A stretch of 64,000 nucleotides of DNA from Desulfovibrio psychrotolerans (GTDB lineage Bacteria > Desulfobacterota > Desulfovibrionia > Desulfovibrionales > Desulfovibrionaceae). The first letter of the stretch is position 1, and every line of letters begins with the position of its first letter. Below the pieces are notes generated by a model. That model had not been told where the DNA came from. It saw only the letters and a list, made by a program, of their open reading frames with translations, and did not search any database. The stretch lies in the NCBI RefSeq assembly GCF_013340305.1, contig NZ_BLVP01000001.1:558001-622000 (forward strand), written 5' to 3'. The translations under genes were made by a program, and so were the position numbers. Of this stretch, positions 3,450-59,669 are shown in pieces.

Positions 3450-3521
3450 CTGCCACAACAGGCACATCTGGCACATCTGGCACAACTGACAAAGCAGGCG
3501 CAACAGACAAAGCAGGCGCAA
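3450..3521. repeat. Tandem repeat, eight 9-bp units
   Basis: In exact 9-bp register: CTGCCACAA, CAGGCACAT, CTGGCACAT, CTGGCACAA, CTGACAAAG, CAGGCGCAA, CAGACAAAG, CAGGCGCAA. The tract lies just upstream of the cytochrome start and would encode a Cys/Leu/Met/Gln repeat only if the start were moved upstream, which is not supported by a ribosome binding site. Confidence 0.9.
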
Positions 3522-3620
3522 ATCCCACCTCTTACCCTGATACAGACGCTATATCCGCCCGCAAATGATATTCTCAATACCTGACCGGCCAAGTCTGCTT
3601 TTGCAGAGCACAACAGAGTA

Positions 3621-3640
3621 CGGGTATGCGTACATACCCG
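3621..3640. promoter_or_regulatory. Perfect inverted repeat, possible operator
   Basis: CGGGTATG, 4-nt spacer CGTA, CATACCCG: 8-bp arms. It is not followed by a T run, so a protein-binding site is more likely than a terminator. No known regulator is assigned. Confidence 0.4.
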
Positions 3641-4005
3641 ATGCCTGCCCGAAACACCCCCTGTTTCCGGCAGCACTTTGTTGTTAGCCTTACTGCAACT
3701 CGGCATATCGTATCCGGTAGATACAACCAAATACGATTAGACACGGTCTTATTCGGCCGCTTTCGGGTCGTATACATGGTTCTTCGGGCACAACCACCTT
3801 CCCCCCCGCCGGTATACTGCAGCACGTATCCGCAGGTCGCTCAGCAACAATGCACTGCACCGGATACGCCCTGCGTAACGCCGATTATCCGAAGCAGGCG
3901 CATACCGCCCCGCATGGCGCCAAGCGGTACAGCGCAACGGGCGTCCGGGCTTGTAAGCCCCGGTCGGGTCCGGCTTCACCTCACCACCTCAACCAAGGAG
4001 CAGGT

Positions 4006-5319
4006 TTGAAATTCTTCAATGAACGCCAGCAGGCACTGGCCAAACTGGCTGGCAGGACGGTTTCCCCCGATGACTGGCAGGACTGGAAATGGCACGTCCG
4101 CAAAGCCGTACGCACGGTAGACGCGTTCGAGAAAGCGCTGGGCATACGGTTCTGCGCATCGGAAAAGGCAGAATACGAGCGGACGCTGGAGACCTTCCCC
4201 ATGTCCGTCACCCCCTACTACCTCTCCCTCATAGACGCCGACGACTACCGTAACGACCCGGTGTTTATGCAGTCGTTTCCTTCCCTCTCCGAACTGCACA
4301 TAGAACGGCACGACATGTCGGACCCGCTGCACGAAGACGAAGACAGCCCCGTGCCCGGCATTACCCACCGCTACCCGGACCGGGTGCTCTTTCATGTGAG
4401 CAACGTCTGCTCCATGTACTGCCGCCACTGCACACGCAAACGCAAGGTGGGCGATGCAGACTCCATTCCCACACCCGACGATCTGGAGCAGGGGCTGGAA
4501 TATATCCGCAACACTCCTCAGGTGCGGGACGTGCTTCTTTCCGGCGGCGATCCGCTCATGCTTGCCGATGAGCTTCTGGACTGGATCCTGACCCGCCTGC
4601 GGGAGATAGAGCATGTGGAGATAGTGCGCATAGGCACGCGCATGCCCGTGGTGCTGCCCTGCCGCATAACAGACGGCCTGGTGCGCACCCTCGCAAAACA
4701 CCACCCTGTCTGGCTGAACACCCACTTCAACCACCCGCGTGAAATCACCGCTTCCTCACGCGCCGCACTGAAAAAACTCGCGGACGCAGGCATTCCCCTC
4801 GGCAACCAGAGCGTGCTGCTGGCAGGCGTGAACGACTGCCCCAAGCTGATCAAAAGGCTTAACCAGAAACTGGTGCAGAACAGGGTGCGGCCTTATTACC
4901 TGTATCAGTGCGACATGTCGGAAGGGCTTTCTCACTTCCGCACGCCCATCAGCAAGGGCATAGAAATCATGGAAAGCCTGCGCGGACACACCACCGGATT
5001 CTCCATTCCCACTTACGTGGTCGATGCCCCGGGAGGCGGCGGCAAAATTCCCGTAACCCCCAACTATGTGGTTTCGTGGGGGGTGAACAAGGTGGTGCTG
5101 CGTAATTACGAAGGGGTAATCACCACCTACAACGAACCGGATTCCTACGAAGCCAGCTACTGCGACAGGCAATGCAGCAGCTGCAACCTCCAGTTAAAGC
5201 AGGAAGATGCGGAAGAACGCGCCATCGGCATCGTAAAACTGCTCTCAGACTGGGACGACACCACCAGCCTTACCCCCCGTGACAATATCCGTATGGAGCG
5301 GCGCGATGAAACGCCGTAA
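4006..5319 (+). CDS. ablA: Lysine 2,3-aminomutase (radical SAM, PLP)
   Basis: Converts L-alpha-lysine to L-beta-lysine. The TTG start at 4006 is chosen because AAGGAG lies 5 nt upstream and the protein then begins where the family does (437 residues). The radical-SAM cluster ligands C135, C139 and C142 form CSMYCRHC. The PLP lysine is K347 in PGGGGK, and D303 and D340 correspond, with the same offset of 10, to D293, D330 and K337 of the Clostridium subterminale enzyme, the two Asp that bind the lysine epsilon-amino group. This separates it from EpmB and glutamate aminomutases. The next gene overlaps by 14 nt and is the matching acetyltransferase, so the pair makes the osmolyte N-epsilon-acetyl-beta-lysine. 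Confidence 0.95.
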
Positions 5320-57318: not shown

Positions 57319-57447
57319 GCACACATCCCGCACAATAGCTATCTTCCTGATTTCCTGTACTCAACTCTTCAGCAAACAGCTGCGCCAAACCGCATTGCAC
57401 GGGTCAGCAGCCACGACAATCTGCTACGCACAGAGCAACTTACGCGC

Positions 57448-58344
57448 TTACGATACCCTGTCAACAATGTATTGCGCCAGCGAACGCAGGAAGTCCGCAT
57501 CACCGCCCGAATAGGGCCGCAGATGCTCCACCGCCCTGTCAACATGCTCCTGCGCTATCTCCCGGCTCCGGGCAATGCCCAAAAGACTGGGGTAGGTTGT
57601 CTTGCCCTGCGCGGCATCGCTGCCCACGGGCTTGCCCAGTTGCGCCTCATCGCCCACTTCATCCAGAATATCGTCCACAATCTGAAACGCCGCGCCAATA
57701 GATTCGCCGTACACACGCAGCCGCCGCACATCGTCCCCGTCCGCCCCGGCAAGCATCGCCCCGCTCACGCAGGCGGCGCGGATAAGCGCCCCGGTCTTCA
57801 TGGCGTGCATGCCGCGCAATTCGTCGTAAGAAACACCGCTCCGGGCCGTATAGTCCATATCCAGATGCTGGCCGCCCACCATGCCGCCGGAACCTGCCGC
57901 CACGGCCATTTCCGTCATGGCCCGCACAACCCTGTCCGCCGGAACGGTTTCGGCAACTGTTCCCATCAGCGCAAACGCCTCGGTCAGCAGTCCGTCCCCT
58001 GCAAGTATGGCTGTGGCTTCCCCAAACATCTTGTGGTTGGAAGGCTTGCCCCGCCGCAGGTCATCGTCATCCATGGCGGGCAGGTCATCGTGGATGAGCG
58101 AATAGGTGTGAATGCACTCTATGCCCGCCGCAAACGGCAGCACCGTGCGTCCGTCCAACCCCATCACCCCGGCGGCAGTCATGCACAAGACAGGACGTAG
58201 CCGCTTGCCACCCGCCAGCAGGCTGTACTCCATGGCCTCCAGCAGCCCCTGCGGAATGCCGCGCCCGTGCAGGCAGCGGGCCAGATACGCCTCCACCGTG
58301 CGGGCGCATGCACTCAGCCGTTCCTTAATCTCCTGCGGGGTCAT
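57448..58344 (-). CDS. ispA: Polyprenyl (farnesyl/geranylgeranyl) diphosphate synthase
   Basis: 298 residues from ATG 58344; ATG 58353 and GTG 58359 are alternative starts. First Asp-rich motif [14 protein letters not shown], second DDILD. The region before the first motif is [14 protein letters not shown] with Tyr/Ser five and four residues upstream of it, fitting short-chain (C15/C20) products. Overlaps xseB by about 20 nt and precedes dxs. It makes the prenyl diphosphate precursor for quinones and lipids. Confidence 0.95.
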
Positions 58345-58570
58345 CCTCGGCATCCTCACTTACACCAAAGGGTTGCAACGCCCCCTCCGAAAAAAGGGCA
58401 ATCTCGTTCCGCGCTTTCTCCAGCTGATCACGGCAGGCCTTGGCCAGCGCAATACCTTCCTTATACAGGGCCACACCCTTTTCCAAAGGCTGGTCGCCGC
58501 GTTCCAGCTGCTCCACCACGCTCTGCAAACGCTTGAGCTGGTCTTCAAAATTTTCTTTCTTCGCTGCCAT
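58325..58570 (-). CDS. xseB: Exodeoxyribonuclease VII small subunit
   Basis: 81 residues from ATG 58570 (GAGGAG 5-6 nt upstream). [50 protein letters not shown] is the complete XseB domain, a helical hairpin that binds XseA in several copies. The C-terminal tail is acidic ([10 protein letters not shown]). Forms exonuclease VII with XseA, encoded two genes upstream. Confidence 0.95.
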
Positions 58571-58655
58571 GTTTTTCTCCTCGCCGTGCGCCGCATGCCT
58601 GCGTCCGCCCGCCGTCACATGCCGCACCAGCGGCTGCTGTTCTGTCCGGCGCCGC

Positions 58656-59669
58656 CTACTCTGCGGCAAGCAGGGGCAGCGGGTCAACCAATTCTCCCTG
58701 AACGGAAAGCCCGAAATGCAGATGCGGCCCCGTCACCCTGCCCGTGCTGCCCACCATGCCCACCACCTCGCCGCGCCGCACCCTGTCACCGGGAGCCACG
58801 CCTATGGCGGACAGATGAAAATACATGCTCACCACACCCTGACCATGATCTATGTAAACGGACTTTCCTGCAAAAAAATGATCCTCCGCCAGCACCACTT
58901 CACCGTCTGCGCAGGCGCGAATGGCTGTCCCCTCCGCGCCGCGCAGGTCCACTCCCATATGGGGCTTGCGCGGCTTGCCGTTAAAATAGCGCGTCAGCCC
59001 GTAAGCGCTGGAAACCTGTCCCGGCACCGGACGCAGCATGGGCAGCTCCCACTGCCGCAGCACCTCCATACGGGAAAGCGCCGCCACTACCCGCGCACGC
59101 TCAGCGGCATGGCGGTCCAGATCGTCCTGCGCCACTTCCACATACTTGCGGTCCACGTTCAGGTGCTGCTCCGGATACTGTCTGGAAAGCAGAGACAATT
59201 CCCGTTCCACCGTCTCCCGTCCTGCGGCTGTCCGCACAACGGCACGCAGGGTGCGCGGCTCCTGCTCACTGCCATGCGGCACCCCCAGCAGCACTGCACC
59301 GCGCCACGCGCCTTCATGCGCATCCATCTGCACGGGCACCGTCTTCCCATTCCACAGAACGGAAACTTCCGGCGGCTGCCCGTGTTCTCCAGTTGCCGCA
59401 CCGTCATCCCCGGACGATGTCCCGTCTGCCGGATACGGCAAAAGGGGCTGCCCTTTAGTTGCCCATCCGGCAACCACAACCTCCGCCACAAACGGCTGTC
59501 CGGGAAACACCTCCTGCGGCACCGCCAGACTCACCCGTTCCGGACTCTGCGCCCCGGCCCACACAGGAGAAAGAGAAAACAGGCACAGTGCCAGCCCTAT
59601 CAAAACTCCCCGGCACCCCCGACTCCACCGACAGCACCGGCACCACCGGAACATCCCTTCCTTCCGCAC
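58656..59669 (-). CDS. M23 family metallopeptidase
   Basis: 337 residues from GTG 59669, whose ribosome site AAGGAG overlaps the xseA stop; ATG 59654 is the alternative. A Cys/Arg/Trp-rich stretch (about 7-20) encoded by a 9-bp repeat precedes the signal helix (about 22-39). A beta-rich domain of about 150 residues precedes the LytM/M23 domain, which has HMGVDLRG and HLHFGL as zinc-ligand motifs. Degrades peptidoglycan cross-links or activates amidases outside the cytoplasm. Confidence 0.92.
59608..59652. repeat. Tandem repeat, five 9-bp units at the M23 N-terminus
   Basis: CCCCGGCAC, CCCCGACTC, CACCGACAG, CACCGGCAC, CACCGGAAC. In frame; on the coding strand gives the [19 protein letters not shown] segment before the signal helix. 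Confidence 0.9.

Follow-up and report, generated by a model that had tools for sequence, protein, structure and literature searches.

The window analyzed here, 64,000 nucleotides of the Desulfovibrio psychrotolerans genome, carries short tandem arrays between genes, near gene ends and inside the linkers of unrelated proteins. By position in the window, they are:

3444..3521, flanked by one gene on the minus strand and one on the plus strand: 9-bp array (18-bp higher order) of about 8.7 units, scoring 35 at period 18 and 20.5 at period 9
15880..15952, minus strand: 12-bp array in a YhcH/YjgK/YiaL (DUF386) gene, where it encodes GEPADELADESADEPD in the C-terminal part of the product
26777..26818, noncoding: 10-bp array of 4.2 units, found by both Tandem Repeats Finder and a lag-match scan
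27956..27977: weak tract (score 10.5) in which a 9-bp unit occurs as two exact copies and the flanks are degraded
29531..29566: 9/18-bp array of 4 units between inverted-repeat arms (29522-29532 and 29571-29581); its first two bases also belong to the left arm
34470..34533, minus strand: seven 9-bp units that encode SDLPELPDLPDLPDLP within the gene of a TPR protein (33795-34808)
47588..47632, plus strand: 9-bp array in the first linker of an ABC-ABC-PRAI protein (47357-49900), encoding TGQTDHTGYTGHAG
48265..48329, plus strand: degenerate 9-bp array in the second linker of the same protein, RTGHTDRTGHIGRIS, with a DNA score of only 9.5 (48299-48329)
49124..49150, plus strand: 12-bp array in the third linker of that protein, joining the ABC part to the PRAI part
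50109..50143: 16-bp two-copy repeat inside a block absent from the relatives G005 and G006
50382..50453 (found as 50418-50451), plus strand: 9-bp array, score 12.5; a 4Fe-4S protein read from 50334 has it in its N-terminal extension
51455..51561: 20-bp array starting at the stop codon of the 4Fe-4S protein gene
53725..53783: 9/18-bp array, best described as 18 = 2 x 9, with 3 bases separating it from the 3' end of a minus-strand gene (53787-54131)
59608..59652: array of five 9-bp units lying some 20 bases past the 3' end of minus-strand xseA (59672-61075)

The 4Fe-4S protein is presumably FixG-like, and the array at 3444..3521 may extend the minus-strand ORF 1599-3521 at its N-terminus. The tracts listed in the initial annotation are real: ten of the 12 were found, nine of them by Tandem Repeats Finder (score 40) and one (47588-47632) only by the lag-match scan, while the remaining two (27956-27977 and 48299-48329) are weak at the DNA level. 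Shuffled DNA does not reproduce them, the window holding nine period-9 tracts with a score of at least 11 vs 0.1 per dinucleotide shuffle (10 shuffles). With a score of at least 12, period-9 tracts number 10.9 per 100 kb in the window, 4.5 in another 400 kb of this genome and 1.1 in other bacteria, a background made up of 80 loci around a transporter with distant relatives; period 9 is therefore more frequent in the window than elsewhere in the genome sampled.

Several of these arrays coincide with differences from the three nearest relatives. The ABC-ABC-PRAI protein has 23 more residues in its first linker than G005 and G006 have there and 17 more than G003, the RTGHTDRTGHIGRIS residues of the second linker lie largely opposite alignment gaps of all three, and ahead of the third linker, at the ABC-PRAI junction, their ABC frame stops. 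The block holding the 50382..50453 array is largely absent from G005 and G006, and at the site of the 51455..51561 array G005 has no array and G006 a different one, of 26 bp. In linkers of an ABC protein and of the mismatch-repair protein MutL, such arrays form inserts.

We then considered 1.12 Mb (30%) of the genome on eight contigs, comprising 191 kb of noncoding and 932 kb of coding DNA, in which tracts were sought with the lag-match scan, with dinucleotide shuffles of noncoding DNA and codon shuffles of coding DNA as controls. Tracts are present in all eight contigs and in clear excess: 130 noncoding tracts vs 1.0 per dinucleotide shuffle, and 73 coding tracts vs 6.3 per codon shuffle. Per kilobase, noncoding DNA carries more of them (130 in 191 kb) than coding DNA does (73 in 932 kb). 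Noncoding arrays share a size class, as a narrow band rather than a single value: 85 of 130 have periods of 9-13 bp, with a mode at 10 bp (35 tracts), 14, 11 and 9 tracts at periods 11, 12 and 13, and few at 5-8 bp (7/130). At a score of at least 15 (114 tracts), period 10 is found in 32, period 20 in two, and periods 21 and 53 in one each. The exact 9-bp period that had been proposed as the hallmark is thus not one, as it accounts for only 16 of the 130 noncoding tracts. Period 9 is the commonest only within genes, where frame selection expects it: coding periods are multiples of three in 71 of 73 tracts, as the initial annotation had anticipated, against only 47/130 noncoding. The noncoding mode of 10 and the in-frame coding periods therefore point to a DNA-level process that makes units of about one helical turn, of which selection retains those that keep frame. 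In a replication set of 260 kb, fetched after this idea was formed, noncoding tracts of period 9-13 number 35.6 per 100 kb and all 17 coding tracts are multiples of three; the size class recurred, but the sharp peak at 10 did not (5, 4 and 4 tracts at periods 10, 9 and 11). Protein-level selection for disordered, Gly/Pro-rich linkers would fit the coding tracts, which yield tripeptide repeats such as TGH, LPD and TGP. However, noncoding density is higher and includes the frame-breaking periods 10, 11 and 13; noncoding tracts contradict such selection as the sole cause, and we regard it as highly improbable.

The relatives, one genome per species, were compared over partial stretches of each genome, and across these stretches the distribution is species-specific. 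Noncoding tracts of period 9-13 number 36-47 per 100 kb here vs 4-10 in the three nearest relatives (G005, 4.4 from 5 tracts; G006, 10.0 from 6 tracts; G003, 9.7 from 1 tract in 10 kb). Six other genus members have 0-3.8 in small samples, and two genomes from other families, G022 and G031, have 10-12, a value that derives from single tracts and counts against lineage restriction. Tracts that can be compared with a close relative are mostly missing there. The claim of lineage specificity is therefore upheld by a noncoding excess over the nearest relatives and by absence at the orthologous sites compared. Among 127 syntenic gaps, those bearing tracts exceed their G005 counterparts in 17 of 20 cases (median +161.5 bp), while 57 tract-free gaps of at least 50 bp differ by a median of -1; of the 3,297 extra bp in these 20 gaps, only 1,523 (about 46%, summed by hand) are detectable repeat. 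Across 157 orthologue pairs, compared without an outgroup, there are 16 insertions of at least 10 aa here vs 1 in G005, and in this comparison only four of 23 coding inserts of at least 6 aa have a clear tandem signature.

The arrays are short (median 5 copies) and worn, with imperfect copies: 636 of 3,047 neighbor-unit positions differ, 411 of these differences being transitions. They grew locally, in line with the slippage suggested at the outset, with unit identity declining as units lie further apart: 0.752 at distance 1 (70 arrays) and 0.600 at distance 6 (26 arrays). Stand-alone exact two-copy duplications of 9-11 bp are few (13 in noncoding DNA vs 2.4 shuffled), giving little indication of current activity.

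Unit sequence varies from array to array, with a mild preference for CC(A/G)G, GGCA and C-N-GGCA and otherwise free composition. The shared core that had been noted is enriched, C-N-GGCA occurring in 19 of 85 noncoding unit consensuses vs 3.3 +/- 1.8 for base-shuffled units and in 6.2% of random noncoding stretches of equal length. It is nonetheless a minority trait, missing from 66 of the 85 units, and the tracts are therefore not one family derived from one unit. Arrays are enriched at stop codons and not at starts. Such a soft core, together with constant length and free sequence, as argued for repeats of 20-21 and 52 nt in the excerpted text of an earlier survey (PMC8161180), would suit functional arrays, that is, sites for a nucleoid or RNA-binding protein spaced one turn apart with their length under selection. 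We consider this improbable: similar arrays lie in frame within the linkers of unrelated proteins, as multiples of three in coding DNA, sister species have no arrays at the genes compared, and lengths of 9 to 13 would disrupt helical phasing in long arrays.

Taken together, these observations lead us to favor, with a probability of about 0.6, the view that a single process at the DNA level, specific to this lineage, generated the tracts by duplicating short stretches in tandem and then duplicating them again. It is best read as lineage-specific, expansion-biased slippage that generates a short (about 10 bp) class of "constant size, variable sequence" repeats. Unit length stays close to one turn of the helix (mode 10 bp, in most tracts 9-13). 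Strand misalignment during replication would produce a loop of about one turn; the loop may exceed the size range of mismatch repair, would usually be expanded, and would then drift by point mutation. Within genes only units of 9, 12 or 15 bp would survive, yielding linkers of low complexity in which Gly, Pro, Ser, Thr, Asp and Glu abound, and outside genes arrays would occupy tolerant DNA, notably stop codons, with no shared function of their own. Mismatch repair handles loops of up to about 4 nt, and the presence of MutS and MutL genes fits loops above this limit. However, mismatch repair should miss units of 5-8 bp as well, and yet these are rare, so the peak at 10 calls for something beyond slippage.

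Other causes fared poorly. No repair gene was missing among those looked for: mutS and mutL score above the cut-off and are free of internal stops in all 10 genus genomes, which speaks against lost mismatch repair, and Pol I, RecJ and ExoVII, whose loss was also considered, are present in 10/10. Hairpin-driven slippage was rejected, as arrays fold no better than column-permuted ones (mean folding z -0.04 +/- 0.07, 172 strands). General cryptic simplicity was rejected as well, short-lag recurrence in tract-masked noncoding DNA being broadly G005-like and slightly higher at some lags (e.g., 19, 20, 28 and 29); a period-3 residue in this masked DNA, here and in G005, implies that some coding DNA escapes the gene caller.

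Okazaki primers are about 10-12 nt long, and retained, ligated primers or unprocessed 5' flaps could duplicate a primer-sized piece, the primer fixing unit length and its poor fidelity explaining the diverged units. A unit length of 9-13 with mode 10 agrees with this, as does greater homogeneity in the array half met first by the fork (0.045 +/- 0.017, on a replication axis inferred from GC skew; 0.034 +/- 0.017 averaged over both scan directions). Yet this polarity is weak, at about 2 sigma, Pol I aligns full length including its 5' nuclease region, and the primase signature is rejected, since CAG and CTG (1.46 and 1.30 times background in skew-oriented tracts) have no clear strand asymmetry, so that we hold this origin to be unlikely. 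Staggered nicks about one turn apart, made by a nickase, transposase or end-joining and then filled in and rejoined, would also duplicate a fixed stagger, giving a fixed unit with mild sequence preference. This is quite improbable in view of the few stand-alone two-copy events, the lack of a Ku match in any of the 10 genus genomes, which also dismisses end joining, and the lack of an RVT_1 match in this genome (3/10 genus genomes have one), which likewise dismisses a retroelement origin. Rather doubtful, in our view, is the idea that the lineage possesses a replication or repair activity, either dedicated or altered, which duplicates DNA by roughly one helical turn at a time, softly prefers C-N-GGCA-like sites and thereby creates intergenic sequence, extensions and linkers of proteins, and fused genes; an insert that it made in MutL may weaken mismatch repair and so feed the process.

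Several known systems resemble these arrays in part. The repeat unit of Ehrlichia ruminantium is reportedly about 150 bp. As here, its tandem repeats lie in long intergenic regions, and active expansion and contraction is stated for the noncoding ones in the passages available (PMC10710844). The TAACTGA heptamers of Beggiatoaceae and cyanobacteria also form many short intergenic arrays per genome but, in the excerpt consulted, have one fixed sequence and lie mostly just upstream of start codons, whereas ours are variable and lie at stop codons (PMC4679880). Archaeal Borg repeats, according to the accessible portion of that paper, are similarly scattered, arise independently and are virtually missing from Borg host genomes; their ORF units are all divisible by three against only 14-38% of intergenic ones (here 71/73 and 47/130), and they create disordered protein regions, much like the coding arrays here (PMC9879509). 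Borg units are, however, perfect, adenine-enriched, 18-21 nt long in the examples given and extrachromosomal, unlike the diverged units of this bacterial genome (PMC9879509).

The closest parallel is the class of bacterial constant-size, variable-sequence tandem repeats of Subirana and Messeguer, who, in the excerpted text, found only sizes of 20-21 nt, which they equate with two helical turns, and 52 nt (PMC8161180). Both sets are species-specific, with many loci, fixed length and free sequence, and in both, multiple-of-three repeats usually code for amino-acid repeats; the unit here is instead about one turn (mode 10; 9-13), in arrays that are worn and short (PMC8161180). The Bacillus search in that survey had a minimum of 10 nt, so a 9-nt unit would appear as 18 (PMC8161180). 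Among the literature matches listed, judged by title and the opening of the abstract, none describes a 10-bp class or repeats of a Desulfovibrio-like genome.

The 20-21 nt and 52 nt repeats (the latter about five turns, by arithmetic) were reported without explanation in the text excerpted (PMC8161180). Scores of one-turn arrays, free in noncoding DNA beside frame-filtered ones in coding DNA, and relatives with far fewer make the determinant of length testable. The process would also represent a bacterial route to new protein linkers, and perhaps fused genes, as well as to longer intergenic gaps.

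Ten of the twelve tandem tracts listed in the initial annotation of the window (bases 558001-622000 of contig 1; genome 3.79 Mb, 47 contigs) were recovered when each was rechecked by Tandem Repeats Finder, by inspection of its printed units and by a scorer of lag matches (+1 per match, -1.5 per mismatch); the remaining two are weak, 27959-27994 consisting of two exact copies and noise and 48265-48327 scoring low at the DNA level. The proposed excess of period-9 tracts over shuffled sequence held, with nine in the window against 0.1 expected from ten dinucleotide shuffles (score 11). 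When compared with 80 loci of other bacteria (N runs excluded), period-9 density was about 10 times higher in the window and 4 times higher in another 400 kb from the same D. psychrotolerans genome (G000). At 29522-29581 a GC-rich inverted repeat (CGCGCCCCTGT / ACAGGGGCGCG) encloses a 9-bp array between its arms, and the sequence printed shows no T run following it.

We sampled 53 stretches of 20 kb from G000 (1.124 Mb including the window), which a simple codon-usage gene caller trained on G000 split into 190,901 bp of noncoding and 931,644 bp of coding DNA (910 genes). At a score of at least 13, noncoding DNA held 130 tracts against 1.0 per shuffle (five shuffles), and coding DNA 73 against 6.3 per codon shuffle (three shuffles). 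The annotation had taken 9 bp as the typical period, but the commonest noncoding period is 10 (35 of 130), followed by 9 (16), 11 (14), 12 (11) and 13 (9), periods 5-8 together contributing seven. Because longer periods pass the scorer more easily (two perfect copies of 13 bp suffice, two of 10 bp do not), the excess at 10 is on this count a conservative estimate. The caller overlooks some coding DNA, as a residual period 3 reveals, and some "noncoding" tracts of 9, 12 and 18 bp may therefore be coding, those of 10, 11 and 13 bp being less affected. Within genes the expected preservation of frame was borne out: 71 of 73 tracts have periods that are multiples of three, chiefly 9 (25), 12 (18) and 15 (9). 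This pattern was first drawn from 864 kb; a later 260-kb replication set, eleven stretches picked by position and two for mutL and polA, reproduced both size class and frame rule (16 noncoding 9-13-bp tracts; 17 of 17 coding tracts in multiples of three), while the sharp peak at 10 was absent from it (5, 4 and 4 tracts of periods 10, 9 and 11). The sample also includes a noncoding run of 22 C (stretch L105:13271-13302), which may be phase-variable or may stem from the assembly.

The unit core C-N-GGCA, previously read as the mark of a repeat family, is indeed enriched: 19 of the 85 unit consensuses contain it, where shuffling bases within units gives 3.3 +/- 1.8, and it occurs in 6.2% of random noncoding stretches. 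Enrichment extends to CCAG, CCGG and GGCA among 93 noncoding units and to CGGAC among 53 coding ones. The common words are a preference, not a repeat family.

Among the 70 noncoding tracts of 9-13 bp in the first set, adjacent units differ at 636 of 3,047 positions, and 411 of these differences are transitions. Across 70 coding and noncoding arrays of at least five 9-15-bp units, units one apart share a mean identity of 0.752, dropping to 0.600 for units six apart (26 arrays), and a two-unit higher order is seen in 16. This is the pattern of arrays that grow as one or two units are duplicated locally and point mutations fall between events. Exact two-copy duplications standing alone are few: noncoding DNA has 13 of 9-11 bp against 2.4 in dinucleotide shuffles, and genes have 42 of 9 bp against 5.0 expected in G000, and 8 against 1.3 in G005, one of the three nearest relatives. 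Of 110 pairings of a noncoding tract with a gene end, 14 have the tract touching or overlapping the stop codon (1.8 expected, under a null that kept tracts within their gap and so somewhat inflates the excess), compared with 1 of 94 pairs (0.6 expected) for start codons, the control. Two near-identical 10-bp arrays (TGGATGTTGA) at L172:7317-7354 and 7471-7508 are separated by about 120 bases and look block-copied.

In the stretches examined, the density of period 9-13 tracts in noncoding DNA is 47.4 per 100 kb in G000 and 0-10 in nine other genomes of the genus; new stretches of G000 gave 35.6. Eight genomes from other genera or families gave 0-12.4, every non-zero value being a single tract, and one comparison genome, G031, held six 6-bp noncoding tracts. 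G003, G005 and G006 were ranked nearest by a single 1,037-residue protein (window 18001-21114; 83-85% identity, best match 30-31% in the other six), and with more sequence they reached 9.7 (1 tract in 10 kb), 4.4 (5 in 113 kb) and 10.0 (6 in 60 kb). The trait is thus present at a low level in this clade and raised in G000. The 16S rRNA gene had no match in this nearly complete 47-contig assembly, probably having been collapsed or omitted during assembly.

Gene-order alignment with G005 (380 kb, 173 reciprocal best hits, median identity 78.6%) gave 127 syntenic gaps. Among 20 tract-bearing gaps, 17 are longer in G000 and three shorter (median 348 versus 176 bp), and one contains a tract in G005 as well. 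The 57 gaps of 50 bp or more that lack a tract have a median difference of -1 bp, 26 being longer in G000. The result matched that of an earlier scan, covering 12 tracts whose flanks had been mapped, apart from one in L095 (-9 bp) and three in L106, where the left gene paired was more distant (about -363 bp). Inserts surrounding window tracts 51455-51561, 50109-50143 and 50382-50453 are visible against both G005 and G006. Directly past the stop codon of the gene where G000 has a 20-bp array, G006 has a different one of three 26-bp units (L132:13202-13279).

In a two-way comparison of 157 orthologue pairs, without an outgroup, G000 has 27 insertions of at least 5 residues against 4 in G005, and 16 against 1 of at least 10; a clear tandem score was found in only 4 of 23 inserts of at least 6 residues. 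Pol I carries an insertion in a linker; MutL and an ABC protein contain arrays:

L218, reverse strand: mutL open reading frame, 808 residues, array in the N-terminal domain
47357-49900, forward strand: ABC-ABC-PRAI protein, one open frame with two ABC ATPase domains (PF00005) and phosphoribosylanthranilate isomerase (PRAI, PF00697)

The N-terminal domain of MutL has a 17-residue insertion, missing in three relatives, that falls where about six 9-bp units coding SPTGPAGPTGPASSASPA form an array (score 24). In the ABC protein, the first two repeat linkers mostly face gaps in G003, G005 and G006, where the first is shorter by 17, 23 and 23 residues. The ABC frame stops earlier in these relatives and PRAI matches lie in separate frames; in G000 the linker joining the two parts holds a 12-bp repeat, which may have caused the fusion.

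The nearest known kind is the constant-size, variable-sequence bacterial tandem repeats, for which the excerpted text of PMC8161180 reports only 20-21 and 52 nt and remarks on two helical turns; the G000 arrays fit that definition, length excepted. Borg repeats, as excerpted in PMC9879509, follow the frame rule too, yet their units are perfect copies, unlike those of these arrays. No 10-bp class of tandem repeats appeared among the matches listed in our literature search.

The genes mutS, mutL, polA, recJ and xseA were found in 10 of 10 genomes of the genus, Ku had no match in any of the 10, and reverse transcriptase had none in G000. Mismatch repair has an upper loop-size limit, and the presence of mutS and mutL is consistent with loops exceeding it. 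Helical pitch and primer or flap length are both possible reasons why the preferred step is 10 and not 6 or 15. The account with most support is that the arrays would arise by slippage-type duplication within a size window of about one helical turn, their units then being re-duplicated locally and drifting, while selection for frame would act on those inside genes.
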